Origin: a virus
Reading direction: 5' to 3' (one strand)
DNA: 40,647 nucleotides
Virus record (IMG/VR): IMGVR_UViG_3300006076_000010
Span: 1 to 40,647 of that record
The notes beneath the pieces were generated by a model. It saw only the letters and a list, made by a program, of their open reading frames with translations. It did no database searches and was not told the DNA's origin. A program made the position numbers and the translations under genes. Shown here piece after piece: positions 1 to 40,647 of the stretch (position 1 is the first letter of the stretch; every line of letters begins with the position of its first letter).

Positions 1-99
1 ATTTTCTATTGTTACTCCTTTAATTTTTAATCACAACTTCGTCTAATTTATAACTTACTTTTTCCTCGCTCCAAATATCTCCCACAATCAAGTCAGCAA
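1..99. repeat. Left copy of 99-bp terminal direct repeat
   Basis: Bases 1..99 are identical to 40549..40647. A gene (20..238) lies across this stretch and its neighbours read continuously over the junction, so the simplest reading is a circular or circularly permuted molecule with an assembly overlap. A true short terminal repeat cannot be excluded from sequence alone. Confidence 0.95.
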
Positions 100-238
100 C
101 TCTTTTACTTGGAGCGGTTGCGTAAACTTCTACACCATTTTTTAACCAAATTTTTATAAATTCCCCGTCTTGCCAAATGTTTAGCACTTGTTTTGAATGG
201 AAGCCAAAGCTTCCGTTATTATCTCTTAATAAAATCAT
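20..238 (-). CDS. Hypothetical early protein, 72 aa
   Basis: I do not recognise this protein. It is a small soluble protein with alternating hydrophobic and polar residues, suggesting a beta-rich fold, and has no membrane segment or metal motif. Its ATG overlaps the TGA of the upstream gene 235..516 (ATGA), so the two are translationally coupled, and a good RBS (AAGGGGAATAAA) precedes the start. It is part of the leftward early unit driven from 1093..1121. Its 3' end lies inside the terminal repeat, so on the circular map transcription continues into the hairpin element at 40492..40547 and then the gene at 40465. Confidence 0.75.
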   Translation of the reverse strand: MILLRDNNGSFGFHSKQVLNIWQDGEFIKIWLKNGVEVYATAPSKRVADLIVGDIWSEEKVSYKLDEVVIKN

Positions 239-516
239 TTTATTCCCCTTTCTGTTCTTAATTTATCAAGCAAAGCCTTTTTTGCTTCTCTTGCCATTGC
301 TAACGGCACGGCTTCAGTTACAAAATCCGCACCATTTCCGAAACTCCATATTTTAACCATTCTTTTACCGCTTCCCCACTCTCTCATATACTCGATATAT
401 AAAGTCGCACCCACTGAGTAAATATACTCAGTTTTTGAGTAATAGCGACCAAATACTTTCCCCTCTTTTCTTATCTCATCAAGTGTTCTAATGTGTCTTT
501 TAATTTCTACTTTCAT
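235..516 (-). CDS. Hypothetical early protein, 93 aa
   Basis: This is a basic protein of unknown function. The N-terminal part is rich in Lys, Arg and aromatic residues; the C-terminal third looks helical (residues about 60-88, with alternating Ala, Lys and Leu). No catalytic motif is visible. The start at 516 is preceded by AAAAAAGGAGCTAAAA, a strong RBS. It lies between the 28-residue membrane peptide gene and the 72-aa gene in the first early cluster, where small proteins acting on the host are typical; that role is inference from position only. Confidence 0.75.
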   Translation of the reverse strand: MKVEIKRHIRTLDEIRKEGKVFGRYYSKTEYIYSVGATLYIEYMREWGSGKRMVKIWSFGNGADFVTEAVPLAMAREAKKALLDKLRTERGIK

Positions 517-531
517 TTTTTAGCTCCTTTT

Positions 532-618
532 TTAGTAATTTAGTAACAACCAAGCCCAGATTAAGATAAAAGCTACGCCGATAATGTCAAATTTTAGTCT
601 AAGTTCCTCAGCTCTCAT
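532..618 (-). CDS. Tiny single-pass membrane protein, 28 aa
   Basis: A short ORF starts at 618 behind a GGGGGTAACAG ribosome-binding site of the same style as its neighbours (GGGGTAACA). It encodes a charged N-terminus (MRAEELRLKFD) followed by about 15 hydrophobic residues rich in Ile, Leu and Trp, ending in NY. This is the shape of a single transmembrane helix with a cytoplasmic head. It fills the gap between 516 and 644, and 14 bases separate its stop from the next start. Function is unknown; phage early membrane peptides often alter the host envelope or its import systems. Confidence 0.65.
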   Translation of the reverse strand: MRAEELRLKFDIIGVAFILIWAWLLLNY

Positions 619-643
619 CTGTTACCCCCTTTTACCGCAGGGA

Positions 644-964
644 TTAAAGGAGAAAATAAGCGGGATTAAATTCACCCCATAAGTGAGCGAATTTCCCTAT
701 TAATTCTCCTTGAAGCGTTTCGCAGTTATATATTGCGATGGCTTCTTGGTATAATTCTGTTGCAATAGCTTCCCAATCAGTATCAGTTGGTGCTAAAACT
801 GACACGATAGCAGTTGGCTCTGTTCTTGAATTTGCTTTTTTTATTGCTTTTATTTTTACCCCGTGTCTTTTAAGAGTGCTAACAACTTCTGCTAAATATA
901 GAAATGAGCCGTCACCGCCCATTCTTATTGAAGTTTCTAACCCTATGTTTAGAATGTATTTCAT
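644..964 (-). CDS. Conserved phage/plasmid-type hypothetical protein, 106 aa
   Basis: The ATG at 964 is chosen because AAAAGGGGTAACA lies directly upstream; the longer reading to 1015 runs through a hairpin (980..1025) and has no RBS. The N-terminus (MKYILNIGLETS) and the central SRTEPTAIV segment resemble a small protein family found in phages and plasmids that carries an N-terminal NIGLE segment and a TEPT motif; its function is not known to me. It is the first gene after the early promoter at 1093..1121 and so is probably among the first proteins made. Confidence 0.8.
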   Translation of the reverse strand: MKYILNIGLETSIRMGGDGSFLYLAEVVSTLKRHGVKIKAIKKANSRTEPTAIVSVLAPTDTDWEAIATELYQEAIAIYNCETLQGELIGKFAHLWGEFNPAYFLL

Positions 965-979
965 TGTTACCCCTTTTAT

Positions 980-1025
980 TAAGATTAATTTCAAAGCTCT
1001 TGGTAAAGCTCTCAAATTAATCTTA
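980..1025 (-). promoter_or_regulatory. Long perfect hairpin in the early leader
   Basis: A 12-bp perfect inverted repeat (TAAGATTAATTT at 980..991, its complement at 1014..1025) encloses a 22-base loop that holds two direct copies of AAAGCTCT. In the leftward transcript the hairpin lies about 60 bases downstream of the predicted start site and just before the RBS of the gene starting at 964. It could stabilise the 5' end or control translation of the first early gene. It has no U-tract after it, so a terminator is less likely. Confidence 0.6.
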
Positions 1026-1050
1026 TTTAGAGGTCTGACTTAACAACCTG

Positions 1051-1064
1051 TTTTCAATCATCTC
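1051..1064 (-). promoter_or_regulatory. 14-bp leader box, copy 1 (GAGATGATTGAAAA)
   Basis: The minus-strand sequence GAGATGATTGAAAA is found here and again at 34399..34412, each 27-28 bp downstream of a consensus minus-strand -10 box. Here it could open a 12-codon leader reading frame (MIENRLLSQTSK). It may equally be a binding site for a regulator or antiterminator. Confidence 0.5.
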
Positions 1065-1092
1065 GGCTTGTTTCGTTTGCCTTACGATTGAA

Positions 1093-1121: not shown

Positions 1122-1295
1122 GAGTTTTTGGAGTAAATTTTCAAAAATTTTTTAAATTTTTTATGATTTTGTTTCAAAGTGTCGTATTTTCGGGAGTTTT
1201 GAGCGTTTAAATTTTTTTTGTGGCTTTTTTTCTTATATATTGATTTTATAATTAAGTATCTTTATATAATAAAATATATTTATATATAAAAGAAT

Positions 1296-2769: not shown

Positions 2770-3392
2770 GGCTTTTTAACCCAAAAACAAACAAATATGC
2801 TGTAGCAGTAGTTGAGCATTATGTAGGAGAAATCAAAGACGAAGTATACATTGCAGAGCCTGTAGAAGAATATGCAAGTGATAAGCTTATAGTAGATAAA
2901 TTAAGAGCAAGTGAGAATAAGCCATTTAATTTCAGAAACAAAGATGAAATTGAAGCATATACTAAATGTGCTGAATGTCAAAAACAGGTTAAGTCACTAA
3001 ATTCTGAAATAAACAGACGAATTACGCAACTGAATATGCAGACAGATGAGCTTGATAGCTGTTTACAGGATAAAGAAGCTCTTGAAAAAGCAGTAGCTTC
3101 ACTTAACAGAGACAATGAAAAATTAAAACAGGAAGTAGAAGCCCTTAAATATCAGGAAAAAGAACTTGCAGAGCTTAAAAAGCAACTCTCTTTCTGGCAA
3201 GAAGAATACAATAAACTATCAGAGACTTTAGCTGAGATAAGCAGACAAAGAGATGAGCTTGAAACTAAACTTAAAGCTAAAATAATAGACTATTCTGCAG
3301 AAGACGATGTAGAGCTTCTAAAAGAGATATTAGGGCTTATTCTAAAAGACAGAAAAGATGAAGCAATAGACAAACTTATGGAGATAATCTGA
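2760..3392 (+). CDS. Coiled-coil protein upstream of terminase, 210 aa
   Basis: The N-terminal 70 residues form a small mixed domain. A CAEC motif follows, and from about residue 75 to 175 there is a long heptad-rich, Lys/Glu/Leu coiled coil. The C-terminal 30 residues look like a short helical bundle. I cannot assign a function. Position between rusA and the small terminase, with overlaps on both sides (10 bp upstream; its stop and the next start share one base), suggests a role in DNA processing or packaging, perhaps as an oligomeric adaptor. Start RBS is AAGGCAGAAG inside rusA. Confidence 0.75.
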   Translation: MYLRLFNPKTNKYAVAVVEHYVGEIKDEVYIAEPVEEYASDKLIVDKLRASENKPFNFRNKDEIEAYTKCAECQKQVKSLNSEINRRITQLNMQTDELDSCLQDKEALEKAVASLNRDNEKLKQEVEALKYQEKELAELKKQLSFWQEEYNKLSETLAEISRQRDELETKLKAKIIDYSAEDDVELLKEILGLILKDRKDEAIDKLMEII

Positions 3393-4192
3393 TGGAAAAA
3401 ATGTGCGTATTCTGCAAGAAAAATCCTGCAGTTATAGAGGATAAATACTGCTCTAAAGCGTGTATGTATGCAGTTCAACAAAAGACCTACTTAATTGAAA
3501 AGCAAGGATATACTGAAGAGCAGTTAGCACACATTACAGACCCTGCAGAACTGCCATTAAGTGAAGCTCAAAAAGATTTTGTCTATGAGTATGTGAAGAC
3601 TAAAAATGTAGTTCAGTCTTACAGGTCTGCATTTGCCTCATCTGCTGGACTTAATAACAGGCAAGTGTATAAAAAAGCTACATTCCTTCTTAAACTTCCA
3701 TTTATTAGGAAATATGCTGATGAAATAGTTGAAGAGCTTAGAAACAGATTTATAGAAGACAAGTTTAATGTGCTTTTCACTCTTGATACAATTATCAATA
3801 CTTCAATTAAGCAGTTTTTAAGAGACGATGGAAGCCTTAAGCCTATTAATGAAATTGATGATGATAGTGCTATAGCTATTAAGAAACTAACAAGAAGATA
3901 CCATAAAACAGGCGAACTTATGGAAGAGACTATAGAGCTTGAAGATAAAATGAAAGCAATAAATTTAGTTGGAAAATACTATCAAATGTTCAATGAGAAA
4001 AAAGAGGTTGATGTTAAAGTTACTCATTTACTTGATGTTATTAAAAAAGATGACGATGTTAATATAGATGAATTAATACAAAAAGCAAAACAGGCAGTTG
4101 AGCAAAAAGTTAACGAGAGGTTTTTAGAGTTTAAAAAAGAGAATGCTATAGACGCAGAAGTTATAGACACTGAAAAATCTAACAAGGAGTGA
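3392..4192 (+). CDS. terS: Terminase small subunit with N-terminal zinc finger
   Basis: Small terminases bind the packaging site on phage DNA and guide the large subunit. Residues about 53-100 hold the classic start of the Terminase_2 family (LSEAQKDFVYEYV followed by a Tyr/Ala-rich repeat and a long helix), and the rest to about 200 continues as in that family, with an acidic/coiled C-terminus. Unusually, the first 30 residues form a Cys4 finger: C5, C8, C20, C24 (C-x2-C-x11-C-x3-C), probably a second DNA- or protein-binding element. At 266 aa it is longer than most small subunits (about 150-180 aa). It lies two genes before terL, as expected. Confidence 0.82.
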   Translation: MEKMCVFCKKNPAVIEDKYCSKACMYAVQQKTYLIEKQGYTEEQLAHITDPAELPLSEAQKDFVYEYVKTKNVVQSYRSAFASSAGLNNRQVYKKATFLLKLPFIRKYADEIVEELRNRFIEDKFNVLFTLDTIINTSIKQFLRDDGSLKPINEIDDDSAIAIKKLTRRYHKTGELMEETIELEDKMKAINLVGKYYQMFNEKKEVDVKVTHLLDVIKKDDDVNIDELIQKAKQAVEQKVNERFLEFKKENAIDAEVIDTEKSNKE

Positions 4193-4194
4193 TT

Positions 4195-4311
4195 ATGTTT
4201 CTAAATCTGTTAGACGCTGTGTTATTTGGTGCAGTAAGTGGATTTATAGTTTTTGTTTTATCTTTTTCTGCATTCAAGTTTATTTTAAAGGAAATAGATG
4301 GCAAAAGATAG
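4195..4311 (+). CDS. Tiny membrane protein between the terminase genes, 38 aa
   Basis: AACAAGGAGTGATT precedes the ATG at 4195 and the ORF ends 14 bp inside terL. The product starts MFLNLLDAV, has about 22 hydrophobic residues (Val, Phe, Leu, Ser) and ends in KEIDGKR, the pattern of one transmembrane helix with a basic cytoplasmic tail. Strong RBS and exact packing between terS and terL argue that it is real. A membrane protein in the packaging operon is odd; it may tether packaging complexes to the membrane or be a host-interaction peptide. Function unknown. Confidence 0.7.
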   Translation: MFLNLLDAVLFGAVSGFIVFVLSFSAFKFILKEIDGKR

Positions 4312-5731
4312 AAGTGCAATATATGCACAACTATCTAAAGAAGACAAAATCATACTGAAAGCCTGTGCTAAAAGTTTTGAGTTTTTTGTAACTAAACTAT
4401 TAGGAGCTTTACCGAGTAAGCAACAATTAGAAGTAATAAGGGCTGTGGATGATGGAGCTACGCATATAGCTATTAAATCAGGACACGGAGTTGGAAAAAC
4501 TACTCTTATGTCTTGGTTTATAATCTGGTTTGGCTTATTTAGAGAAGATACTAAAATCCCTATGACTGCACCTACCGCTTCTCAGTTATATGACATTCTA
4601 ATACCTGAAATATCAAAATGGAGACAAAAACTTCCGTCTTTTCTAAAAGATGAGGTTGAAGTTCAAAAAGAGAAAGTTGTTTTTGCTAATGGAAACTTTG
4701 CAGTAGCAAGAACTGCAAGACCTGATAAGCCTGAAGCATTACAAGGATTTCACGGAACTCATATTGCATTTATTCTTGAAGAAGCCTCTGGTATTCCTGA
4801 AAAGATTTTTGAAGTTGCAGAGGGTGCGTTAACTTCTGAAAACTCTTTTGCTCTAATGGCTGGAAACCCTACAAGAACATCTGGCTTTTTCTATCAAACA
4901 TTTGCTCACCCAGATGGAGTTTGGAAATTATTCACATTTAATGCTGAAGAAAGTGAAAATGTAAGCAGAAAAGCAATACTAAACTTTCAAAAGAAATACG
5001 GAAAAGATAGCGATGTTTACAGAGTTAGGGTTAAAGGTGAGTTTCCAAGAGGTAGCTCTAATGCTGTATTCCCTGTAGATTTAATAGAAAGTGCAATATA
5101 CAGAGATGTATGGGACACAACTGGTATTGAAATATGGGGACTTGATGTAGCAGATTATGGAGATGATAGAAGTGTGTTAGCGAGAAGACACGGGAAAAAC
5201 TTATATCAATACGACTATGTTAGAAATTATGACGCAGATGATTTAGTCAGATGGCTGGTTAGAGAATATAAAAAAGCTAAAGTTAAACCTAAAATTATAT
5301 TTGTAGATACAATCGGCTCTGGTGCTTCAATTCCGTCTATGGCTGAAAAAGCTGGGCTAAAAATAGTTTATGGTGCTAAAGCTTCAAATAAAGCAGTAAA
5401 TCACGAGGAATATCAAAATGCAAGAGCTGAATGGTTTTTTAAAATGAGAGAGGCTTTAGAGGACGAGGGTAAACTAATTAACGATGATGAACTTATAGGA
5501 GAATTGGGTGCTATAACTTATCATATCAATGACCAGACTGGAAAATTACAAATAGAAGCAAAAGACAAAATAAGAAAAAGTTTAGGTCGTTCGCCAGATA
5601 TTGCAGACGCTTTTGCACTTACATTTGCAGACGAAAATTTGGTATTATATGAATTAGAAAAAGGCGATGATGAGCCAGATTTTGATGAAGAACAAAACCT
5701 AATTTATTCTTATGGCGGTGGATTATGGTGA
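4298..5731 (+). CDS. terL: Terminase large subunit (ATPase-nuclease)
   Basis: This is the DNA-packaging motor that docks on the portal. The N-terminal ATPase has a Walker A at residues 61-69 (SGHGVGKTT) and a Walker B at 156-163 (IAFILEEA, ending in the catalytic Glu). The C-terminal RNase H-like nuclease shows GLDVADYGDD (D283, D286), IFVDTIG (D337) and the final SPDIADAF Asp near residue 437, the usual metal-binding set. Length (477 aa) is normal. The start lies within the end of the preceding 38-aa gene, and the stop overlaps the next gene's ATG (ATGGTGA). Confidence 0.97.
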   Translation: MAKDRSAIYAQLSKEDKIILKACAKSFEFFVTKLLGALPSKQQLEVIRAVDDGATHIAIKSGHGVGKTTLMSWFIIWFGLFREDTKIPMTAPTASQLYDILIPEISKWRQKLPSFLKDEVEVQKEKVVFANGNFAVARTARPDKPEALQGFHGTHIAFILEEASGIPEKIFEVAEGALTSENSFALMAGNPTRTSGFFYQTFAHPDGVWKLFTFNAEESENVSRKAILNFQKKYGKDSDVYRVRVKGEFPRGSSNAVFPVDLIESAIYRDVWDTTGIEIWGLDVADYGDDRSVLARRHGKNLYQYDYVRNYDADDLVRWLVREYKKAKVKPKIIFVDTIGSGASIPSMAEKAGLKIVYGAKASNKAVNHEEYQNARAEWFFKMREALEDEGKLINDDELIGELGAITYHINDQTGKLQIEAKDKIRKSLGRSPDIADAFALTFADENLVLYELEKGDDEPDFDEEQNLIYSYGGGLW

Positions 5732-6210
5732 CACAAATTATGTTTACAAAGGAAATGAATAAAGATATTCATAAAAATCTTATGAGTGAAAACTTTGATA
5801 AGTTTATAAAATTGTGGAAAGAAAAAAAAGAAATAGTTGTTTTGTTTAGTAAAAAGTCTATGGAAGCTTATATAATTAAAAAAGTTTGGCACTTACTTGA
5901 CAATAAGAAGCCATTTTGCAAAAAGATGAATTTAAGCTTGGAACTTTGCAGAAAAAAGCTCAAAAGGAAAATTTTTCCACAAAGTGTCATCAATTTAATA
6001 GATTTTTATGGAGAAATACTTGCGTATAAAAAATCTTTACGCTATAATTCTTTAAAGATAAAACTCTCTTGGAGAGTGGTAGAGCTTATCTTGGCTGAGG
6101 ATTTATTTAAAGCTGGGTATAGTGCTAAACAAGTATCAGAAATGTTAGGTATTCATATAAGAAAATCATTCAGAATACAAAAAAGGTTAAGAGAAAATGG
6201 CGAAATCTAA
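5725..6210 (+). CDS. Hypothetical protein with C-terminal helix-turn-helix, 161 aa
   Basis: Lys-rich protein. The last 36 residues read as a helix-turn-helix of the resolvase/Hin type: a first helix, then AGYSAKQVSEMLGIH and a basic recognition helix. The rest is helical without recognised motifs. It starts within the stop of terL and overlaps the portal start by 14 bp, so it is made with the packaging proteins. Possible roles are recognition of the packaging site or late transcription control. ATGs at 5740 and 5755 are alternatives; the RBS for 5725 is weak, favouring coupling to terL. Confidence 0.7.
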   Translation: MVTQIMFTKEMNKDIHKNLMSENFDKFIKLWKEKKEIVVLFSKKSMEAYIIKKVWHLLDNKKPFCKKMNLSLELCRKKLKRKIFPQSVINLIDFYGEILAYKKSLRYNSLKIKLSWRVVELILAEDLFKAGYSAKQVSEMLGIHIRKSFRIQKRLRENGEI

Positions 6211-7825
6211 TCAAACTCAACAACTTATAAACAAATTTGAAGAAGCAAGAAAAGGATATGAGTATATTAAAGGTGACCTGATAGTCCTTGAATATGGATA
6301 CCTAAATAAGATACCAGATGAAAAACTTAAAGAATTACGCAAAAGAGGAAAGTCTACTTTAGCTCCTAAAAAAATCTTTGCTAAGATTAGAAGAATTGTA
6401 ATATCTATAATGAAAACCTACTTTGAAAATGATGAGTTTGCTAAACTTTTGCCTATCTACGATAATGATTACGCAAGACAACAAGTTCAAATTCTGCAAA
6501 AAGTATTCGATTTTTGGATTAATAAAAAAATTAACTTATATACCAGATTGAGACCTATAGTAAAAGATGGATTGGTTTACGGGACAGGCTGTGCCAAAGT
6601 ATTTTGGAGAAATGGTTTAAAAATAGAGAGAGTTAATTTGCACGATATTTGGGTAGACCCAAATGCTGAAAATATTTTTGACATTCAGTATGTAGTAAAT
6701 AGAGTATATACTACAATAGCAACTCTTAAAAAACAATTTGGAAATAAAAAGATATTTAGAAATCTAATAGGTGCTACAATAGAAAATGATGAGCCAAGAT
6801 TTTCTGACGCTGATTTAGGAGACGCTTCAAGAATAGAAGTGTATGATATTTACACACTTGAGAATGGTAAATGGTATGTATCTACAATGCTTCCTACCTA
6901 TCAATTTATAAGAGTAAAAGAGGAATTAAAAGATGGATTGCCTTTTGTGTTTGGAATTGCTGAAACTCAATTTGTATGCACTGGTGAAATGGCTGTCAGA
7001 GCGTTAGGTTATCCTATAGTGGATTTAATGATACCTCTGCAAGAGCAATACACTATTACAATTAATCAACAATTTGACGCTATAGATAAACAATTAAATC
7101 CTCAATTCCTTGCAACTAAACAAGCTGGTATAAGTGAAAACACTTTAAGGAGCAATAAGAAATTATTACAGGTTACAGACTTAAACAATATTAGAGAACT
7201 ACCTCAACCAAACATTAATCAGTCTTTACTCGCTACTGATAAAGTTGAACTTGATATGCAAGAAGTTAGCGGTATTACTAAGCTATCTCAAGGAATTATA
7301 GACAAACACCAAAACACAACTGCTACAGGTATGACAATTTTAACTCAAGAGGCTAATGAGGTAATAGCTGATATAATTAGAAGTTTTAATGAGAGCTTTT
7401 TTGAGCCTTTAATTAGAAGAATGGTAAGACTTATTTACAAATATGATGATAATCCTATGTTATATGGGCTTAATAGAAGTCAGAATATAGAATTTAAAGT
7501 TAAAATTAATACAGGTGTAGGTGCTACAAACAGGGAAGTTCAACTTCAAGCTATCACAACTGCAGAACAAACTGCTATGCAAAACCTACAAATTGCTATG
7601 CAAATGCAAGATTTACAATCTGCTAAAGTATATAGAGATGTGCTTAATAAGCTTTATTTAGAAAAGCTTGCAGTAATAGGGCTTAAAAATATTCAGAATG
7701 ATATGAAAGGAGAGTTAGATAATGAAAGAAATGACAACGATGGAACAGGAGCAAATCCTGCAGGCGAAGTTGCAGGAAATCAAATCAATCAAGCAGACTT
7801 CGGTATGGCAGGACTTAATGAATGA
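6197..7825 (+). CDS. Portal protein
   Basis: Portals form the dodecameric ring at one capsid vertex for DNA passage and tail attachment. The 542-aa length, position after terL, and layout fit: an N-terminal helical region with KIRRIVISIMKTYFE, the VKDGLVYGTGCAKVFWR segment typical of short-tailed phage portals, INLHDIWVDPNA-like clip/wing segments, a helical stem, and a late EVSGITKLSQGI...TATGMTILTQEA crown segment. The last 104 bp are shared out of frame with the next gene, so the portal's flexible C-terminus (Asn/Gly-rich) is overprinted. Confidence 0.93.
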   Translation: MAKSNQTQQLINKFEEARKGYEYIKGDLIVLEYGYLNKIPDEKLKELRKRGKSTLAPKKIFAKIRRIVISIMKTYFENDEFAKLLPIYDNDYARQQVQILQKVFDFWINKKINLYTRLRPIVKDGLVYGTGCAKVFWRNGLKIERVNLHDIWVDPNAENIFDIQYVVNRVYTTIATLKKQFGNKKIFRNLIGATIENDEPRFSDADLGDASRIEVYDIYTLENGKWYVSTMLPTYQFIRVKEELKDGLPFVFGIAETQFVCTGEMAVRALGYPIVDLMIPLQEQYTITINQQFDAIDKQLNPQFLATKQAGISENTLRSNKKLLQVTDLNNIRELPQPNINQSLLATDKVELDMQEVSGITKLSQGIIDKHQNTTATGMTILTQEANEVIADIIRSFNESFFEPLIRRMVRLIYKYDDNPMLYGLNRSQNIEFKVKINTGVGATNREVQLQAITTAEQTAMQNLQIAMQMQDLQSAKVYRDVLNKLYLEKLAVIGLKNIQNDMKGELDNERNDNDGTGANPAGEVAGNQINQADFGMAGLNE

Positions 7826-9098: not shown

Positions 9099-10022
9099 AT
9101 GGCATTAACATCATACAACGACCAAGTTAACCAAAAGCCGTCAGTCTTAGACGCAATATTGTTACAAGGTGCAAGTTCAACACCATTTTTACAATGGTTA
9201 GATAGAGGGCAAAAAATATCTGCTCCAAAACATAGCTGGATTTTAGATACATATAGAAGACCGACTGACAACGCAAATCTTGAAATTACAGATATTAGTG
9301 AAGATACTAAAGACACAAAATATATGAAAGACAATGTCGTTCAAATTATCAAAAATGAGTTTGGTATCTCTCTTGAAGAAAACGACAATGCAAAATATGG
9401 ACAAAAAGAATGGGCTTATAGAATTGGCAAAGTTGGTAAAGAACACGCTATGGACATTGAGTATGCTTTGCTTGGATTGCATAATGATAGTGTAGAAGAT
9501 GGATATACAGAGGGAAGTGATACAACACCATCAAAAATGGCTGGATTATTCCATTATATTGACAATAAAAAGGATTATTCAGATAGTAATGGAAACCCAA
9601 CAGATTTAACTTATGATAGGCTTAATGAAATCATTGAGATGATTTGGAATAATGCTGATATTGATAATGAGAGTTTTATGTTAGTATGTGGAACAGGACT
9701 AAAAAGAACAATCAACTCATTTGCTAAAGATTATTTTAGATGGCAACAAAATCCAAATAGAAAATTTGACCCAACACTTTATGTAATTACAACTGATTTT
9801 GGAGATATTAAAGTTAAAATTCACAGATTATTTAACAACCCTAAGCTTAAAAATTATTTATTGGTTGGACAATTAAATAAAGCTGATATTAGATTTAAAA
9901 TTCCAACATTCTTTAAAGAGCTTCCTACAAGCAAAACTGCGAGATTTGGAAGATATTACACATCTTTAACTCTTGAAGTTAAAGAGCCTACAATGTTTGC
10001 ATTTGCAAAAGGGCTTAAATAA
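9099..10022 (+). CDS. Major capsid protein, SU10/DUF5309 type
   Basis: This protein forms the icosahedral or elongated shell. Its length (307 aa), position after the scaffold and features match the SU10-like HK97-fold family: an N-terminal ALTSYNDQVNQKPSVLDAI segment, PFLQWL, the AEKH-like HSWILD strand, a Glu-rich loop with TKYMKDNVVQI, and a C-terminal FKELPTSKTARFGRYYTSLTLEVKE segment where a family member typically shows LP-T-D-----Ile. It has its own RBS (AATAAGGAGAATGTT) and an upstream promoter, consistent with high expression. Confidence 0.9.
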   Translation: MALTSYNDQVNQKPSVLDAILLQGASSTPFLQWLDRGQKISAPKHSWILDTYRRPTDNANLEITDISEDTKDTKYMKDNVVQIIKNEFGISLEENDNAKYGQKEWAYRIGKVGKEHAMDIEYALLGLHNDSVEDGYTEGSDTTPSKMAGLFHYIDNKKDYSDSNGNPTDLTYDRLNEIIEMIWNNADIDNESFMLVCGTGLKRTINSFAKDYFRWQQNPNRKFDPTLYVITTDFGDIKVKIHRLFNNPKLKNYLLVGQLNKADIRFKIPTFFKELPTSKTARFGRYYTSLTLEVKEPTMFAFAKGLK

Positions 10023-11750: not shown

Positions 11751-12674
11751 ATGGCTGAATTAGAAACAACTTCAACAAGCGGTGTAGCAAGTGCAAGTGG
11801 AAGTGCAAGCGGTGCTGGAGTGGTTAAAAATTTTAATATTGTTTATAGAAAAGATTTAGACAGACCTCTTACAAGCGAAGAGGTGGATAACAATTTTTAT
11901 CAGATAGAAGTAGCTTATAATAAATTTATGAGTAAAGTTGATAGTTTTACTGAAGAAGTTAATAGTAAAATTTCTGAATTAAGTAAAAATATTACTGATG
12001 TTAATACAAATCTTGATAATAAAATTACTACATTGTCAAATTCATTTGAAGCATATAAACAAGCTAATGACAATGCTATAAATGATATTAAAACAGATTT
12101 AGGCAATACAAAAACTCAAATTGAAACAATAATCGGAGAAGTTAATGTAGCACTTGGTGCATATATTAAAAAAGATGAAAATGGTAATTTTACTTTTGAT
12201 AAAGCAACATTTGCTTCAGATTTAATTCCACAATTTGTAGCAGGGCTTGATGACGCCTCTGTTAGTATATTAAAAGGTAAGCTTGGCGTTACTTCTATTG
12301 AGACAAGAATGTCTAATGCAGAAGCAAGAATTGCTACAAATGAAAGCAATGTTAATTCTATCGTTACAATGCTATCGCCTTATGTAAAAGTTGATGATAA
12401 TGGAAACAAATTAATTGATATTGAAAAAGTTGCTGAAGCATTAGTTGCTATTTTAGATAATAGATATGAGCTTAAATCTACATCTAATAGTGGGACTGGT
12501 AGTGCCTCTGCAAGTGGGAGCTCTGCTGGTGAAGCTTCAACATCAGGTAGTGCTTCAGGCAGTGGAGACGCAACTACTTCTAATAGTGGCTCTGCTTCAG
12601 GTAGTGCGAGTGGAAGTGCAAGCTCTAATGCAGATACTGCTTCAACATCAGGTAGTGCAGACGGGAATGGATAA
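11751..12674 (+). CDS. Fibre-like virion protein with N- and C-terminal SASG segments
   Basis: Residues 4-26 are Ser/Thr/Ala/Gly-rich. Then comes YRKDLDRPLTSEEVDNNF (about 32-49), a short motif known at the N-termini of many phage tail-fibre proteins. Residues 60-230 are a coiled coil with regular hydrophobic heptads, and the last 60 residues (about 247-307) are almost only Ser, Ala, Gly, Thr and Asn. The stop overlaps the start of the transferase gene by one base (TAATG). Low-complexity Ser/Thr tails and a coupled glycosyl/hexose-phosphate transferase suggest that this protein is modified in the particle; this link is inference. Confidence 0.78.
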   Translation: MAELETTSTSGVASASGSASGAGVVKNFNIVYRKDLDRPLTSEEVDNNFYQIEVAYNKFMSKVDSFTEEVNSKISELSKNITDVNTNLDNKITTLSNSFEAYKQANDNAINDIKTDLGNTKTQIETIIGEVNVALGAYIKKDENGNFTFDKATFASDLIPQFVAGLDDASVSILKGKLGVTSIETRMSNAEARIATNESNVNSIVTMLSPYVKVDDNGNKLIDIEKVAEALVAILDNRYELKSTSNSGTGSASASGSSAGEASTSGSASGSGDATTSNSGSASGSASGSASSNADTASTSGSADGNG

Positions 12675-29102: not shown

Positions 29103-29519
29103 ATGGGGCTTATAGATTTTTCAGTAGGAGATATTGGAAATTTATTTAAAGATGTTAGAGAAGCTATTACAGGAAAAGCTATAGAAGACCCTAATAAAAA
29201 AGCGGAGATTGAACTTAAATTATCTCAGTTAGAACAAGCTCTTAAAATGGGTCAAATTGAAATCAATAAAGCTGAAGCACAAAATCCGAATTGGTTTGTA
29301 GCAGGTTGGCGACCTTTTATTGGTTGGACAGGTGGAATTGCTTTAGCATATACATTTGTAGTAGCTCCATTTCTTCATTCATTTTTTGCTGTTTTTAAAG
29401 TAAATTATCCTTTACCTGATTTAGATATAGGATTATTAATGAATTTAGTCATAGCAATGCTTGGTTTAGCTGGTATGAGAACATACGAAAAAACTAAAAA
29501 AGTTCAAGATTTACACTGA
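29103..29519 (+). CDS. Holin, 3TM (GTA-holin-like) family
   Basis: Holins make holes in the inner membrane at a set time. The NPNWFVAGWRPFIGWTGG motif (about residues 61-78) is the hallmark of the 3TM holin family known from gene-transfer agents and many phages. It is followed by two hydrophobic helices (about 75-100 and 110-130); the N-terminal half is an amphipathic coil. Length (138 aa) is typical. It heads the lysis cassette with its own promoter. Confidence 0.88.
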   Translation: MGLIDFSVGDIGNLFKDVREAITGKAIEDPNKKAEIELKLSQLEQALKMGQIEINKAEAQNPNWFVAGWRPFIGWTGGIALAYTFVVAPFLHSFFAVFKVNYPLPDLDIGLLMNLVIAMLGLAGMRTYEKTKKVQDLH

Positions 29520-29531: not shown

Positions 29532-30002
29532 ATGACAGAATTTATGGAAGTTGTAAAATTTGGAGCTTTAATTTTAGGTGGCGGATATTTTATTTGGAAA
29601 ATTGAAACTCAAGGGAAACTAAATAAAGCTCTAATAGAGAGGTTGGACGAAAAGCACTCATTGTTCTTTGAGAAATTTAAAGAAGTGTTTGAAAAAGAGA
29701 TTGAAGCGTTAGATAGTAAAATAAAAACTAAAAAACAAAAAATTGAAGATATGGAAAGAAAAATTGAGGGTAAGTATATAGAAGTAAAAAAAGAATTAGA
29801 TTTAATGAAAGAGGGGTGTAATTCAAAACATAATGAATGCCAAGTAAGAATGAATAATTTTTTAGATATTAGAAGTGCAGATGAAAAATATGTATCAAAA
29901 ATGGAACTCAGATTGGAACTGCAAAAAATAGATAGTAAGCTTGATACTTTAATATCTTATTTTAAAGGAAGGGGTGGAGATGGATTACCAAAGATTAATT
30001 GA
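29532..30002 (+). CDS. Membrane-anchored coiled-coil lysis protein (i-spanin candidate)
   Basis: One N-terminal transmembrane segment (about residues 8-22, FGALILGGGYFIW) is followed by a long charged coiled coil reaching to residue 145. This is the architecture of Rz-type inner-membrane spanins that disrupt the outer membrane, and the gene lies between holin and endolysin. No matching outer-membrane lipoprotein was seen, so the assignment is tentative. RBS TAGGAGTAAAAA. The endolysin start is inside its 3' end. Confidence 0.65.
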   Translation: MTEFMEVVKFGALILGGGYFIWKIETQGKLNKALIERLDEKHSLFFEKFKEVFEKEIEALDSKIKTKKQKIEDMERKIEGKYIEVKKELDLMKEGCNSKHNECQVRMNNFLDIRSADEKYVSKMELRLELQKIDSKLDTLISYFKGRGGDGLPKIN

Positions 30003-30393
30003 GGGAATTAAAAAAAGAGAGGGATTTAGAGGAATGCCTTATGAAGATAACAGAGGCTTCCCTACGATAGGATACGGCACATTGCTTCCTATAAGTGAAG
30101 AAGAGGCAACTATGCTACTAAAACATAGACTTGATAACGCTATTCAAGAAATTATAGAACATAAACCATTTTTTGTAGATTTACCAGAAGAGATACAAGA
30201 AGTATTAGCAGAGATGGGATATCAATTAGGTGTTCCTAAACTTATGTTATTTAAAAGAATGTGGCAAACTATTGAAAATCAAGATTGGAATGGAATGATA
30301 AAAGAGATGTATGATAGCAGATGGTATCACCAAACTCCTAATAGAGTTAAAGCATTGGTTAAAAAAGTAGAAGATTATATTAATAAAAATTGA
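29980..30393 (+). CDS. Endolysin, T4-type lysozyme (GH24)
   Basis: This enzyme hydrolyses the MurNAc-GlcNAc bond of peptidoglycan. The GH24 catalytic triad is complete: E14, D23 and T29 have exactly the spacing of Glu11, Asp20 and Thr26 in T4 lysozyme, embedded in KREGFR and PTIGYGT. The C-terminal helical lobe (WNGMIKEMYDSRWYHQTPNRVKAL) matches the family. The ATG at 29980 lies 7 bases after AAAGGAAGG; a GTG at 29974 is less likely. At 137 aa it has no signal peptide, so it needs the holin for release. Confidence 0.95.
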   Translation: MDYQRLIEGIKKREGFRGMPYEDNRGFPTIGYGTLLPISEEEATMLLKHRLDNAIQEIIEHKPFFVDLPEEIQEVLAEMGYQLGVPKLMLFKRMWQTIENQDWNGMIKEMYDSRWYHQTPNRVKALVKKVEDYINKN

Positions 30394-30404: not shown

Positions 30405-30608
30405 ATGGCAAGAGCTAAATCAACTGCTAAAAAAACAAACATAAAAATCAACCCTAAAAACAAAGGAAAATTCACTGAGTATTGTAAAAAACAAGGTTAC
30501 AAAGGGGTAACTTGCGGGTGTATTAATAAAGGGCTTAAATCTAAAAATCCTAAAACAAGAAAAAGAGCTAATTTTGCAAGAAACTTCGGCAAAAAGGGCA
30601 AATGTTAA
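30405..30608 (+). CDS. Small basic conserved phage protein, 67 aa
   Basis: The ATG at 30405 follows GAAAGGATTTAAA. The protein is very basic and has KFTEYCKKQGYKG...CINKGLKSKNPKTRKRANFARN, a pattern seen in many small phage proteins (KGKFTxYCxxxGYxGVTxxC). Four Cys suggest metal binding; nucleic-acid binding or virion association are likely. It ends the rightward operon, its stop overlapping by 4 bp the stop of the converging MazG-like gene. Function unknown. Confidence 0.8.
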   Translation: MARAKSTAKKTNIKINPKNKGKFTEYCKKQGYKGVTCGCINKGLKSKNPKTRKRANFARNFGKKGKC

Positions 30609-31135
30609 GCCCTGTCTTCTGCCTTAATTGCAAAACCTCTTTCATCTACTTCTATTCCTTTTACCCGTGAATGGATTATATCAGATACATTTTTTAACAC
30701 TTTATTAAGTGTATATTCTGTTTTTGTATATATTTCTATAAATGTATTAGCTCCTGCTACCATATTTCTAAATGGGGCAAATGCTCTTCTTCCATTGTAT
30801 GCGTGTATGTCTTTATAAAAGTTTGCACAATCTGCAAAGAAATATCTCAAATCTTTGGTTAAATTGTCATCCATCCACAAATAAGGGTGTTTAACACCAT
30901 AGTTAAAATTATTGATTATTTCTTCATCAGTAGCTCCTTGCATTTTTAAAAGCATAATTGCTACAACTATAATATCTCCAAAACTATCTAACACATCTCC
31001 TTTTAAATTTTTCCTAAAGGCAGTTGCTAATTCTCCTTGCTCTTCTATAAATTTAATTGATTGTGCGTCAATATTGCTTTTTTCAAATAACTCTACACTT
31101 TCTCCCCAGCAAATTATTCTTTTTACTACTTCCAT
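30605..31135 (-). CDS. MazG-like NTP pyrophosphohydrolase
   Basis: All-alpha NTP pyrophosphatases hydrolyse (d)NTPs to monophosphates and in phages are thought to tune nucleotide or alarmone pools. The signature E-E-x-x-E ... D-x-x-x-D is visible as KFIEEQGELATAF (about residues 29-41) and DVLDSFGDIIVV (about 47-58). The C-terminal 100 residues are extra and unrecognised. RBS AAAGGAGTTTAA before 31135. Last gene of the leftward unit. Confidence 0.82.
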   Translation of the reverse strand: MEVVKRIICWGESVELFEKSNIDAQSIKFIEEQGELATAFRKNLKGDVLDSFGDIIVVAIMLLKMQGATDEEIINNFNYGVKHPYLWMDDNLTKDLRYFFADCANFYKDIHAYNGRRAFAPFRNMVAGANTFIEIYTKTEYTLNKVLKNVSDIIHSRVKGIEVDERGFAIKAEDRA

Positions 31136-31840: not shown

Positions 31841-32719
31841 TTACGCTCCTGACAACATTTTATTCAAGTCTGGTTTTTCAGAAGCATTACCGCTTCCGCT
31901 TTCTAAAGTGTCTGCTTCAACTATCACTCCAACTTCTTGAGTTTTAGCATAATCAATTCTTTTTCCTGCTTCGTTTAGGTCTTCAATAGCAATAGCTTTA
32001 GCCCCAAATTCATCAAGAGGTAGTGTTTTAGCCAACTTCTTAATAGCAGTTTTAAGAGCCATTTCTATAGGGAAATCTGCCCAAATGTAAATAGGCTCAT
32101 CAGTAATTAAATATTTTTTAGTTTTGCTATCGTATACCTTTTGACTTGCACTCATTCTCCTGATTTTATCGATTTGTTTTTTGTTCATAACTAATTTGTA
32201 AATTTCTCCTGTTCTTTTATCTTTTGCAAGTGCTACTACATATTTCAAATGTTCCCATTCCCATTTAGGATTACCCTCATCTCTCTCTTCAAAGTTTGGC
32301 TTAAAATGTATTGTTTCGTCCCACCCATCAGGACTTACCTCAACTGCAAACTCATCTACATCGTAAACAGGAAATGCTTTCACTGAATACCCACTCCTGT
32401 CAAGAATAGAAATATAACCTTTATATCCTATTTGTAGTTGGGCTACTTTTCCATTTTTAGTCCCATAAGGCACTACATAAGCCTGACCCAAATTCTTGTC
32501 AGGGCTTAGGTTTAACATTGCTACACCCATAAGAGCTTCTACAATGCTTTCCTCTGTGCATTCGCTTAATTCTTTACTATTAGCAATAGTTAAAGCCATA
32601 GCAGTAAAACGATTAGCTTTTTTCTCATCTGTTAGAATGCTTTTAATTTGTTTGTGTGCTTGTGCTAAGAGAGCTTTTACTTTTTGTTCTCTTGGTGTTA
32701 CTGCAGTATTATTTGCCAT
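31841..32719 (-). CDS. recT: RecT single-strand annealing protein
   Basis: RecT-family proteins anneal complementary single strands and drive phage recombination with a partner exonuclease. The conserved core is clear: LSPDKNLGQAYVVPYG, QIGYKGYISILDRSG, the basic MNKKQIDKIRRMS segment, IWADFPIEMALKTAIKKLAK. Length (292 aa) is typical. Ser/Gly-rich C-terminus ends DLNKMLSGA. It is in one operon with the RecE-like exonuclease (33445), separated by two small paralogous genes. RBS AAAAAAGGAGAATAA. Confidence 0.96.
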   Translation of the reverse strand: MANNTAVTPREQKVKALLAQAHKQIKSILTDEKKANRFTAMALTIANSKELSECTEESIVEALMGVAMLNLSPDKNLGQAYVVPYGTKNGKVAQLQIGYKGYISILDRSGYSVKAFPVYDVDEFAVEVSPDGWDETIHFKPNFEERDEGNPKWEWEHLKYVVALAKDKRTGEIYKLVMNKKQIDKIRRMSASQKVYDSKTKKYLITDEPIYIWADFPIEMALKTAIKKLAKTLPLDEFGAKAIAIEDLNEAGKRIDYAKTQEVGVIVEADTLESGSGNASEKPDLNKMLSGA

Positions 32720-33444: not shown

Positions 33445-34227
33445 TTATCCTTTCACCCAATAAGGTAATGAAATTTTTTTAACCACATTTGTTACACCAG
33501 ATTGCAAGTATCTTACATACTCATTAATAACTTCCTCTACCTCTTTTTCTGCTATCTCAAGCCATTCTGGCTCTAATTCTACTACCCAAGCCAAATGCTC
33601 TGGCGATTTGCTTACAACCACAAATACAAAGCTATTTACGGGTTTTCCTGCAAGTTTAAGGACTTCACTATACCAATATTGTTGCCAATGGTATTTGAAG
33701 TTCCATAAAGCCTTTTGAAATTCCTCATCACTTCTTGCACTTGTAGTTTTTAAATCCACAACCAAACCTAATTCTTCATTGTAGTAGTCAGGTCTACATT
33801 TTCTAACAATGCCGTGTCTGTCTGTTTCAAAGAAGCTTAGCTCTGCCTTACCACCTTTAAAAAGTGGAGAGGCTAATTTGTCCACCACCGCTTTCATTTT
33901 AAGCAGTTCTTCATACTCAGATTTACTCAAAATTTTTCTATCTCCTACGCTTTCAAGCCATTTAGCCTTAGCTTCTTTATACGCTTTAGTGTTCTTGTTT
34001 AAATTACAGCCCTCAAAGTCCTCAACTGCGTATTCTTTTTCAAATCTATCTGGCTCTAACACAAGAGAATGAAATGCGTCCCCAAACACAAAATTTTGAT
34101 TATTTTCTTGTGTGAACAATCCCTCTTTATATGCCTCATAATGTTTAGGGCTTATTGCTAAATATTTTAAATCTGTGCTACTAATCCCTTCTGCTTCACG
34201 ATATTCTTTATTTGTCATAACTTTCAT
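33445..34227 (-). CDS. RecE-like 5'-3' exonuclease (PD-(D/E)XK)
   Basis: Resects double-strand ends to give single strands for RecT. The family motifs are all visible: GISSTDLKYLAISPKHY (about 14-30), GDAFH with H53, KCRPDYY with D147, VVDLKTT with D158 and K160, and QQYWYS with the Tyr of the last helix. The 11-residue spacing from D147 to D158 and D-x-K matches the E. coli RecE nuclease domain. Length (260 aa) equals the nuclease domain alone. RBS AAGGAGTAACAG. Confidence 0.92.
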   Translation of the reverse strand: MKVMTNKEYREAEGISSTDLKYLAISPKHYEAYKEGLFTQENNQNFVFGDAFHSLVLEPDRFEKEYAVEDFEGCNLNKNTKAYKEAKAKWLESVGDRKILSKSEYEELLKMKAVVDKLASPLFKGGKAELSFFETDRHGIVRKCRPDYYNEELGLVVDLKTTSARSDEEFQKALWNFKYHWQQYWYSEVLKLAGKPVNSFVFVVVSKSPEHLAWVVELEPEWLEIAEKEVEEVINEYVRYLQSGVTNVVKKISLPYWVKG

Positions 34228-34699: not shown

Positions 34700-35137
34700 T
34701 TAAAATGGAATGTCCTCATCTGGTATATCTTCTAAACTTGCTTCCTTATAAGATTGTGCTTGAGGCTTAGGTTGAGGTTGTGCTTGCGTATTAGTTGAAT
34801 TGCTATTTTTAGGCTTGGATGAAATTAATACCAATTTGTCACACAAAATATTATGCTTGCTTCTCTTAATCCCGTCTTTACCTACCCACAACTCTTGATT
34901 TAATTCTCCATCAACCATTATTTTGTCGCCTTTAAACACATAATTTCTTGCTATCTCGGCAAGCCTGCCAAAAGCTACTACTTCTATAAATGTAGTTTTT
35001 TGTGTAGGTTGCCCATTTGCGTCTTTTCCGTGTTTATTTATCGCAACATTAAAGGTTGCTATTAATTTTCCACCTTGCGTTTGAATTACTTTTGGATTAT
35101 CTACTGCATTTCCTGCTATTACTACTCTACTATACAT
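34700..35137 (-). CDS. ssb: Single-stranded DNA-binding protein
   Basis: An OB-fold SSB of bacterial type: MYSRVVIAGNAVDNPKV, ATFNVAIN, FIEVVAFGRLAE and GDKIMVDGEL are in the normal order over residues 1-105; then comes a Gln/Pro-rich linker and the acidic tip DIPDEDIPF, which recruits partner proteins. Length 145 aa is typical of phage SSB. It lies next to the DnaB-type ATPase in the replication operon. RBS AAAGGAGACAAA. Confidence 0.96.
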   Translation of the reverse strand: MYSRVVIAGNAVDNPKVIQTQGGKLIATFNVAINKHGKDANGQPTQKTTFIEVVAFGRLAEIARNYVFKGDKIMVDGELNQELWVGKDGIKRSKHNILCDKLVLISSKPKNSNSTNTQAQPQPKPQAQSYKEASLEDIPDEDIPF

Positions 35138-35152: not shown

Positions 35153-36097
35153 TTAAATTTCTGGCATATCTATTTGCGGTTTTTCTATTTCTATAACCTT
35201 TGCTACACTTGCACTTGGCACTATTTCGTGTTTTAAAATGTCAACTTTATAATGCCCGTTCCCTGTTTCATCAAATCTGTTTTTATACATAATGAAACGC
35301 CTATATGAATTATCAAATTCAACCATTTCACCATTTTTTGCCTTTGATTTTATAGGTTTTAATAAAAACCACACCATATCTGCGTCATAAATCTGGTCTC
35401 CACTTTCTTTAAGATTAGGAGTTCCTGTTCTCTGGCTTTCTTCACTTAATTGATTAATTAAAACTATTGTTATTTCATTTAACTGGCATATCCTTGATAG
35501 CTCCTCACTTATTTTAGAGGCTTTTTCATATCTGCTTAAATTGCCTTTTACTTTTATTTTCATTCTACTATCAATTACAAAAAACTCAACTCCATCAGAG
35601 ATATGATATTGTATCTCTCTTTTAAGGTCATCTAAATCATTTGATACACTATCAATCCGATAATTTTCTAACTGCTCGTCAGTAGGATTAAATGTTTTCA
35701 GTTTTCTTGCTAAAAGAGCTTCGTTCATCTCAAAATTGAAGTGCATAACCTTTTTCCATTTCGCAAGCGATAAAGCAAGGGCTATCATCATAGTTGTTTT
35801 CCCAGCTTCACTGCTTGCACCAAATTGAATAAAAGCACCTTTAGGTATTCCGCCGACCCTGTCAATAAAATGAAATCCTGTTTCCCAAAATATAGGTGGT
35901 TTTTCTCTTTTTTGCAATAACTCTTTAGCAGTTATAAATTGTGTTCCTTTTTGATTATTTAAAATCAGGTCGTAAATTTCTTTTTTAAGTTCTACTATCT
36001 CCCTTTTAATTTTAATTTCTTCCATAAAATCTTGGGTTTGTCCTAATTTCTTTTTCAGACTTTCAATTTTACTTTTTAACTCTTTTATCTTATCCAT
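35153..36097 (-). CDS. DnaB-type replicative helicase ATPase domain
   Basis: RecA-fold helicase: Walker A GASSEAGKTT (residues 93-102), NFEM (121-124), Walker B FFVID (172-176), INQLS (214-218), and the DnaB-specific TPNLKESGDQIYDAD segment (226-240). It has only a short coiled N-terminus (1-50) and lacks the DnaB N-terminal collar domain, which may be encoded separately at 37906..38283. The ATG at 36097 is chosen, 5 bases after AAGGAG; a GTG at 36103 overlaps that RBS. No primase domain is present, so host primase is probably used. Confidence 0.88.
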   Translation of the reverse strand: MDKIKELKSKIESLKKKLGQTQDFMEEIKIKREIVELKKEIYDLILNNQKGTQFITAKELLQKREKPPIFWETGFHFIDRVGGIPKGAFIQFGASSEAGKTTMMIALALSLAKWKKVMHFNFEMNEALLARKLKTFNPTDEQLENYRIDSVSNDLDDLKREIQYHISDGVEFFVIDSRMKIKVKGNLSRYEKASKISEELSRICQLNEITIVLINQLSEESQRTGTPNLKESGDQIYDADMVWFLLKPIKSKAKNGEMVEFDNSYRRFIMYKNRFDETGNGHYKVDILKHEIVPSASVAKVIEIEKPQIDMPEI

Positions 36098-36296
36098 CTT
36101 CACTCCTTATGCTTTGAGGATATTCCCATTTATCACGAAGCGGTAACTCAACTTTCCCGACAGCAATCTCTATCCAATAATAAGTGCAGTTTTTAACTCC
36201 AGCTTCTTTTAAATTTTTAACTACGCTTCTTGCCTCATCTTCGCAACAAAAGTCATATATTTTATATCCGTTTACTTCAACACGATACTTCCTCAT
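36090..36296 (-). CDS. Hypothetical protein, 68 aa
   Basis: Small mixed alpha/beta protein starting MRKYRVEVNGYKIYDF with two adjacent Cys (FCCEDEA), then a helix and a Trp-containing C-terminus. Unknown. Overlaps both neighbours (8 bp with the helicase, 20 bp with the upstream gene), so it belongs to the same replication transcript. RBS AAAGGAAGATT. Confidence 0.65.
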   Translation of the reverse strand: MRKYRVEVNGYKIYDFCCEDEARSVVKNLKEAGVKNCTYYWIEIAVGKVELPLRDKWEYPQSIRSEDG

Positions 36297-39330: not shown

Positions 39331-39382
39331 AGGCATAAAGCCCTTAATTAAGCCCTCAAAAGAGGACTTGTTAAAGGCTCTC
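39331..39382 (-). repeat. Structured intergenic element, copy A
   Basis: A 52-bp element with two hairpins in the minus-strand RNA (AGTCCTC/GAGGGCT with a 4-base loop, then a GGGC/GCCT stem). A similar element, copy B, lies at 40492..40547. Both stand between a stop codon and the next RBS. Confidence 0.6.
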
Positions 39383-39658
39383 AACTTCTTTTATAAATCC
39401 ATCAGCAATTAAAATTTCGACTTCTTTTTTAGAAGTTACATAAAATTGTGTATATTTCCTTAAAAATTCATAGAAATATTTAGCAGTTGTTCTGCTATAA
39501 TCCCACATAGGCGTAACATAGACTTTATCCCCACATTTTTTTGCAATTAAAGTCTCATAAGATTGAAAATACAAACACCCGTCGGCTTGAATTACAAACT
39601 GATTTGGCACTTCTCTATTTGTTCTTGGACTGCATAAATTCCACACTCTTACTTTCAT
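39371..39658 (-). CDS. Conserved small phage protein (WDYSRTT family), 95 aa
   Basis: The ATG at 39658 follows GAGGAGGAATAAA, one base after the upstream stop. The sequence carries NQFVIQADGCLYFQSYETLIA and MWDYSRTTAKYFYEFL, the core motifs of a small protein family I know from many unrelated phages; its role is unknown to me. Length is typical (about 90 aa). Its last codons overlap hairpin element A. Confidence 0.82.
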   Translation of the reverse strand: MKVRVWNLCSPRTNREVPNQFVIQADGCLYFQSYETLIAKKCGDKVYVTPMWDYSRTTAKYFYEFLRKYTQFYVTSKKEVEILIADGFIKEVESL

Positions 39659-39659
39659 T

Positions 39660-39833
39660 TTATTCCTCCTCATCGATAATGTTTGTAACATTTATTTTTA
39701 AATTTCTTTTAATTGCTTCAATCGCTTTTTTTTCAATCTCCTCATCATCATTTGAATTTACATCAACCACCACTTCTATATCATCACAATAATTATCTAA
39801 AATTTCTATTTCTGCGTATACTCTAAATTTCAT
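39660..39833 (-). CDS. Small acidic protein, 57 aa
   Basis: Starts MKFRVYAEIEILDNYCDDIEV, then an acidic helix and a C-terminal strand ending IIDEEE. Similar in outline to 39146..39307 (strand, then charged helix). Function unknown. RBS AAAGGAGAGAGAAA. Coupled to the WDYSRTT gene (stop and next start separated by one base). Confidence 0.7.
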   Translation of the reverse strand: MKFRVYAEIEILDNYCDDIEVVVDVNSNDDEEIEKKAIEAIKRNLKINVTNIIDEEE

Positions 39834-39845
39834 TTTCTCTCTCCT

Positions 39846-39908
39846 TTAAAAATTATTCATAATTAATATTAATCCAACTATTATTGCTATAAATGCAAGG
39901 ACTTCCAT
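39846..39908 (-). CDS. Tiny hydrophobic peptide, 20 aa
   Basis: An ORF with RBS GCAAGGGCTAAAA encodes MEVLAFIAIIVGLILIMNNF, essentially a single membrane helix. Its stop is next to the RBS of the following gene, as for real operon genes. Tiny but well packed; could be a membrane-active or inhibitory peptide. It could also be a chance ORF. Confidence 0.5.
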   Translation of the reverse strand: MEVLAFIAIIVGLILIMNNF

Positions 39909-39910
39909 TT

Positions 39911-40465
39911 TTAGCCCTTGCACACTTCGTAAAATGCTTCCCCATTTGAAAACTGAGCCACTTTACATAGTGGCGTTGTGTGTTCTTCATAAATTTTATT
40001 GATAACATTTTCAACTTCACTTACTTCATCTTCAAGTTTTCTGATAAAACTTGTTAAATGGTATCTTAGTAAATGTTCTGCTTTACCTGCATAATCTCTC
40101 GCATATTCGCTAAAATCTCTTTCAACTTCGTCTATACTTTCATACTCTGAGCCATCGACTACAAACTCAAAATCATAGTCGAAGTTTCCGCCTGTGTAAT
40201 ATCCAGCTCGCAAACATAACTTGATATTTGCTTCAACTTCTACACCATAAAATTTAAAAGTTTTATATACTTCTGCGAAATATTTAGCGGGATAACTTCT
40301 TTCATTATTCCACTCATCAACTTCAACCATTTCCCAGCCTTTAGGTAGATTTTTTTCAATTCCAGCATAAATTCCATCTGTTACCATATCTACAAAATAT
40401 TCATCTTCATAGTCAATCGCATAAGTTTTATACGCATTTCTGTTTAAAAAGTTTGCAGTTCCCAT
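39911..40465 (-). CDS. Conserved phage/plasmid hypothetical protein, 184 aa
   Basis: Acidic and Tyr-rich, starting MGTANFLNRNAYKTYAI. The N-terminal 'TANF-N-N---' and the later LCLRAGYYTGGNFDYDF segment resemble an uncharacterised protein family of phages and plasmids. The C-terminal third is a long Glu-rich helix. No catalytic motif visible. RBS AAAGGGGTAACAA. Second gene cluster of the early unit, after hairpin element B. Confidence 0.78.
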   Translation of the reverse strand: MGTANFLNRNAYKTYAIDYEDEYFVDMVTDGIYAGIEKNLPKGWEMVEVDEWNNERSYPAKYFAEVYKTFKFYGVEVEANIKLCLRAGYYTGGNFDYDFEFVVDGSEYESIDEVERDFSEYARDYAGKAEHLLRYHLTSFIRKLEDEVSEVENVINKIYEEHTTPLCKVAQFSNGEAFYEVCKG

Positions 40466-40491
40466 TTGTTACCCCTTTGCTTTGATTTTTC

Positions 40492-40547
40492 AGGCTATCA
40501 ATAGCCCTTAATAAAGCCCCACGAATGAGGCTATTTTAAAGGCTATC
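40492..40547 (-). repeat. Structured intergenic element, copy B
   Basis: Similar to copy A (39331..39382) in both order and words (AGGC, AGCCCTTAAT, AAGCCC, GAGG, TTAAAGGCT), with hairpins AGCCTC/GGGGCT and GGCTA/TAGCC in the minus-strand RNA. Stem sequences differ from copy A but still pair. It lies between the 72-aa gene (across the junction) and the gene at 40465. Confidence 0.6.
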
Positions 40548-40548
40548 T

Positions 40549-40647
40549 ATTTTCTATTGTTACTCCTTTAATTTTTAATCACAACTTCGTCTAATTTATA
40601 ACTTACTTTTTCCTCGCTCCAAATATCTCCCACAATCAAGTCAGCAA
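40549..40647. repeat. Right copy of 99-bp terminal direct repeat
   Basis: Exact repeat of 1..99, including the 3' part of the 72-aa gene (start not included). Most likely a circular-assembly overlap. Confidence 0.95.

Follow-up and report, generated by a model that had tools for sequence, protein, structure and literature searches.

Restriction-type words absent from a 40.6-kb phage genome

The viral record IMGVR_UViG_3300006076_000010, analyzed over its whole length of 40,647 bp (the window), contains no copy of 23 short motifs of the type recognized by restriction enzymes, although 955 ± 27 such sites are expected under an order-2 Markov model. Its two ends are identical over 99 nucleotides (nt), leaving a unique length of 40,548 bp; the record thus appears to hold a complete genome, circular or permuted. 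The loss is very probably best explained by cumulative selection that numerous type II restriction systems of its hosts exerted on the phage lineage.

1 to 40647, no strand: site-free genome, without any of the 23 motifs (0 observed, 955 ± 27 expected)
1 to 99, + strand: 99-nt exact direct repeat, copy 1, matching the other end (circular or permuted genome)
40549 to 40647, + strand: 99-nt terminal repeat, copy 2

Of the 16 palindromic tetramers, nine are missing from the window, and the circular junction is also free of sites. A first-pass annotation, made by eye, had named GATC, CATG, GTAC, and ACGT as absent, and exact counting bore this out, with none of each in 40,647 bp against first-order Markov expectations of 94, 113, 64, and 36, respectively. 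The list was correct but understated the loss, having missed CTAG (132 expected), GGCC (38), GCGC (23), CCGG (13), and CGCG (8). When the counts were set against Markov and codon-shuffled expectations, as the annotation had proposed, the nine lay below both. Its claim that the loss is selective holds for AGCT, TGCA, and AATT, which are near expectation, as are TTAA, ATAT, and TATA. TCGA is present, as the annotation had said, yet depleted (14 observed versus 30 to 52 expected). All tetramers were counted, and no nonpalindromic one is absent from the window.

The lost set extends to longer and gapped words. The gapped palindromes ACNGT (0/71, observed/expected), GANTC (0/96), GCNGC (0/49), CCNGG (0/25), and GGNCC (0/21) are gone, as are CCNNGG (0/25) and GGNNCC (0/26), which carry two unspecified bases; longer gaps within 2+2 palindromes showed no comparable loss in the window. 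Also at zero are the hexamers ATGCAT, CAATTG, CATATG, GAATTC, and GAANNNTTC. Among asymmetric words, GCATC (0/45) and GAACC (0/19) are lost and CCTTC (4/57) and GGAGG (3/35) nearly so. AGCT, TGCA, GTNAC, CANTG, AAGCTT, and CTGCAG persist, the last being enriched (17 versus 6 expected). The most overrepresented tetramers, CGTC, ACGC, CCGC, CATC, and CTAC, are mostly one base removed from lost words. As in restriction-site avoidance, the recognition sites lie far below a composition-aware null, and the loss is limited to recognition-type words, with words of like composition unaffected.

A second null model kept all proteins and codon usage intact by shuffling synonymous codons among positions (300 shuffles). 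The nine tetramers averaged 6 to 81 copies per shuffled genome, with z scores from −2.7 (CGCG) to −10.7 (CTAG); the means were 66 for GATC (minimum, 50), 81 for CTAG, 58 for GTAC, 41 for ACGT, and 38 for CATG, and only CGCG occasionally reached zero. CGCG, CCNGG, and GGNCC are the weakest cases: they are sometimes zero in the shuffles because the codon pool is already depleted, and their significance rests on the Markov expectation. The annotation had further noted that aspartate is written GAC before codons starting with C although GAT otherwise dominates, and the counts agree: GAC is used in 33/33 such positions, whereas GAT accounts for 77% (624/808) elsewhere.

Close relatives have lost different sets of sites

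Two metagenomic contigs, G001 (IMGVR_UViG_3300028398_000019) and G002 (IMGVR_UViG_3300026484_000122; 42 kb), share about 66 to 75% DNA identity with the window and encode capsid proteins 83 to 84% identical to its own, and they serve as a natural experiment. All three phages have wholly or nearly lost CTAG, CATG, GATC, GTAC, GANTC, and GCNGC. Other losses are confined to one phage: ACGT and ACNGT are lost only in the window (17/22 and 32/42, respectively, in G001), TGNNCA only in G001 (0/73), and CTNAG only in G002 (0/127; the window has 62). AAGCTT, which persists in the window, is gone from G001 (0/20) and nearly so from G002 (3/38). We know of no common restriction enzyme for TGNNCA. In the literature, one paper was found to mention it, listing it as methylated in an algal giant virus.

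At positions encoding identical amino acids, 17/17 of the ACGT, ACNGT, or GCGC sites of G002 are synonymously changed in the window and 17/17 of the window's CTNAG or AAGCTT sites are changed in G002; control words at such positions are partly kept (TGCA at 15/27 and TTAA at 54/73). This conserved-residue comparison and the aspartate codons indicate that sites were lost without protein change, again as in restriction-site avoidance.

G002 retains 39 avoided sites, versus about 1,219 expected, and 16 of them fall within the 1.15 kb between positions 5101 and 6250 (P of about 2e-15). This stretch contains two open reading frames (ORFs) of 219 and 135 amino acids without known family, and no homologue of it was found in the window. 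It looks like a stretch that was perhaps recently gained and is not yet purged. Separately, the large terminase of G002 was read twice, whole at one end and partial at the other (78% and 75% identical to that of the window), so that the contig ends may overlap.

Gene content and probable host

The recognized genes of the window are as follows:

3392 to 4192, + strand: terminase small subunit (PF03592, 1.6e-18; phrog_51, 1.6e-20)
4298 to 5731, + strand: terminase large subunit (phrog_2, 6.2e-47; 69 to 78% identical to G001 and G002)
6197 to 7825, + strand: portal protein, SU10 type (PF23899, 1.2e-35)
9099 to 10022, + strand: major capsid protein, SU10 type, used as the query for relatives (PF17236, 2.9e-55)
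29103 to 29519, + strand: holin, GTA_holin_3TM (PF11351, 2.3e-17)
29974 to 30393, + strand: lysozyme (PF00959, 1e-10)
30605 to 31135, − strand: MazG-like pyrophosphatase (phrog_1992, 1.6e-16)
31841 to 32719, − strand: RecT annealing protein (PF03837, 1.1e-32)
33445 to 34227, − strand: exonuclease VIII-like PDDEXK nuclease, probable RecT partner (phrog_412, 6.3e-59)
34700 to 35137, − strand: single-strand DNA-binding protein (PF00436, 5.6e-23)
35153 to 36103, − strand: DnaB-like helicase (phrog_19, 5.5e-23)

RusA is also encoded, and an ORF at 12674 to 13399, amid the structural genes, has a weak match to Stealth_CR2 (E value of 1e-4, under the cutoff). No methyltransferase, restriction enzyme, or integrase family was recognized in the scanned ORFs of the window, a set that leaves out some small ORFs, and neither was a base-modification gene or a known anti-restriction protein. 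Because no gene for methylation, base modification, or anti-restriction was recognized there, the lack of sites itself appears to be the window's main defense against these enzymes.

The profile matches of capsid (PF17236) and portal (PF23899) place the window among SU10-like podoviruses, a likeness confined to capsid and portal type. SU10 itself has an elongated head and a genome of ~77 kb, compared with only 40.6 kb here. Other relatives are ~45-kb Pseudomonas phages. Capsid identity is 28 to 38% to phages or prophages of Campylobacter and Helicobacter, 58 to 62% to metagenome-assembled genomes of Campylobacterota, and 46 to 84% to metagenomic viruses. Because these capsid relatives include phages, prophages, and metagenome-assembled genomes of Campylobacterota, the host is most likely a bacterium of that phylum. 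Spacer or DNA matching for the host gave mainly short AT-rich or low-identity matches. INPHARED yielded no near phage by DNA for the first 25 kb of the window, and a terminase search across viral contigs gave no confirmed relative.

Matching endonuclease families in Campylobacterota

Restriction endonuclease families were sought in 200 Campylobacterota genomes and in 14 control genomes, where each family occurred in none or one. Families for 6/9 of the lost tetramers are present among the 200 genomes, some of the matches being fragments: DpnII (GATC) in 46, ICEA (NlaIII-like; CATG) in 25, HinP1I (GCGC) in 17, 16 of them with matches above the curated cutoff, NgoPII (GGCC) in 10, HpaII (CCGG) in 4, and MjaI (CTAG) in 2. 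The specificities given are those generally attributed to these six families. In the genome G020, an NgoPII-family gene lies directly 5′ of a DNA cytosine methyltransferase gene, and a related prophage region lacks GGCC (0/40). Helicobacter SUG33 (G006) carries a full-length, intact ICEA homologue, and its related prophage contig lacks CATG (0/26).

Probable selection by many restriction systems and its alternatives

If selection by host enzymes is the cause, the lineage would have met the numerous type II restriction endonucleases of its host population over many host encounters. Each cleavable site would lower survival after DNA entry, and site-free mutants would win until every copy was gone, mostly through synonymous change within genes. 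Selection by several type II systems is favored because the lost words, the asymmetric ones included, are restriction site-like, because the lost set differs between close relatives, because a relative's stretch without counterpart in the window retains sites, and because endonuclease families for six of the nine tetramers occur in the presumed host phylum. The first-pass annotation had proposed several type II systems with 4-bp specificities; pressure from multiple systems is supported, but the set is about five times larger and reaches beyond 4-bp sites. We infer both the host identity and the correspondence of one enzyme to each lost motif.

Several observations weigh against this explanation. 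Some 20 specificities are many for a single phage lineage to have been exposed to, and the whole lost set was found in none of 73 sampled chromosomes. For CCNNGG, GGNNCC, ACNGT, and GAANNNTTC, no matching enzyme was established here. Spacers from clustered regularly interspaced short palindromic repeats (CRISPRs) gave no convincing match to the first half of the window in 397 genomes of the phylum or to its second half in 190 genomes of the family. The chromosomes carrying the prophages are depleted too (GGCC, 17/94 in G020; CATG, 0/74 at the sampled loci of G006), so that the prophage evidence cannot be fully separated from host composition.

This depletion bears on the idea that the phage, as a long-term resident, mirrors a host chromosome lacking these words through self-restriction purging or mutation bias, which we consider improbable. 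Some Campylobacterota chromosomes do lack several motifs: a sample designated L232 has eliminated ten, and the Helicobacter chromosome has CATG at 0/74 and GTAC at 1/34. L232 covers the first 20 kb of genome G147, and its ten motifs include CATG, GATC, GTAC, TCGA, and GTNNAC; in G006, CATG is at 0/74 and 2/62 in loci L102-L149 and L266, respectively, the former also being nearly without GTAC and GTNNAC. Because the G006 chromosome is itself nearly without CATG, site loss is not confined to phages in this phylum, and since a chromosome sample of 20 kb can have lost as many as ten motifs, host depletion alone does not refute selection by restriction. Even so, the lowest observed/expected ratio among the 73 chromosomes over the window's 16 four- to six-base motifs was 0.50, versus 0 in the window, and the lowest chromosomal density of the 23 motifs was 423 sites per 40.6 kb. 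CTAG was eliminated in 2/73 of these chromosomes and GANTC and GCNGC in none. No integrase was recognized in the scanned ORFs, so long residence is not indicated. The window thus lies beyond every sampled chromosome, a pattern that fits contact with many enzyme repertoires and not the copying of a single host.

It is also conceivable, but highly improbable, that the phage or an ancestor encodes site-specific nucleases against host DNA and spares itself by lacking the sites. Chlorella viruses are known for destroying host DNA with site-specific nucleases of their own, and many ORFs of the window have no recognized family. However, phage-encoded methylation or nucleases were rejected since the scanned ORFs yielded neither a restriction endonuclease nor a methyltransferase family, and 40 kb could hardly hold about 20 specificities in addition to structural and replication genes. 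If short palindromes were generally avoided for reasons of structure or replication, the lost words would be expected to be mostly palindromes, as they are, with G or C in them, but we regard this explanation as extremely unlikely: AGCT, TGCA, GTNAC, TGNCA, and CTGCAG are normal or enriched, the relatives lose different sets, and the losses of the asymmetric GCATC, GAACC, and CCTTC cannot be explained in this way. There is hardly any probability left for chance, composition bias, or an assembly artifact, which only the low G+C content favors; the Markov and codon-shuffle nulls contradict chance and composition, and loss of the same kind is seen in two other metagenome contigs.

Implications and comparison with known systems

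Selection by host restriction systems is an established mechanism, and it is the breadth and completeness of the loss that are unusual. The chances seem about even that the lost words record, in readable form, which restriction specificities circulate in an uncultured host population. GAACC in the window, which a literature search returned only as a primer sequence, and TGNNCA in G001 are, like GAANNNTTC, lost words to which no enzyme was tied here. If the record is readable, comparing close phages would map enzyme repertoires without culturing, the restriction specificities of unculturable hosts may become predictable from phage DNA, and a phage rid of every common site would be able to move freely among many strains. 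With about 20 motifs at zero, differing relatives, and one unpurged stretch, this extreme and clean case makes the speed and order of purging measurable.

Restriction-site avoidance in prokaryotic double-stranded DNA viruses was surveyed by Rusinov et al. (2018; PMC6286503), who found it for orthodox type II sites and more strongly in nontemperate phages. In their data, the site was eliminated in 7.1% of type II site-genome pairs, and roughly one viral genome in ten showed total or near-total elimination. By their threshold for an eliminated site (observed/expected ratio of <0.1 with >15 expected), here combined with a simpler expectation, 16 palindromes count as eliminated in the window, each at exactly zero, compared with 15 in G002, 8 in G001, and 11 in a Helicobacter pullorum prophage. 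In a yardstick panel that is small, not a survey, and supports no claim of a record, phage N4 (50 kb) has 8, T7 has 2, Helicobacter phage KHP30 has 1, and a Campylobacter phage has none. Unlike the cases of Rusinov et al., the window has lost asymmetric sites too. G002 differs in its lost set and in still holding some sites, many of which lie within a single accessory stretch. The H. pullorum prophage (BK070136) resembles the window in its SU10-type major capsid protein (28% identical) and its 11 eliminated motifs, but it keeps CTAG (154/153) and GANTC (137/90), has few exact zeros, and carries an integrase. Restriction-modification is likewise a documented factor for the Nitratiruptor phages NrS-1 to NrS-5 of vent Campylobacterota (PMC9723563), and Nitratiruptor enzymes have been produced by cell-free expression (PMC10734518). 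In contrast to the window, NrS-1 to NrS-5 are temperate siphoviruses and show another strategy, in that two of them carry their own methyltransferase and a BglII-like enzyme (PMC9723563).

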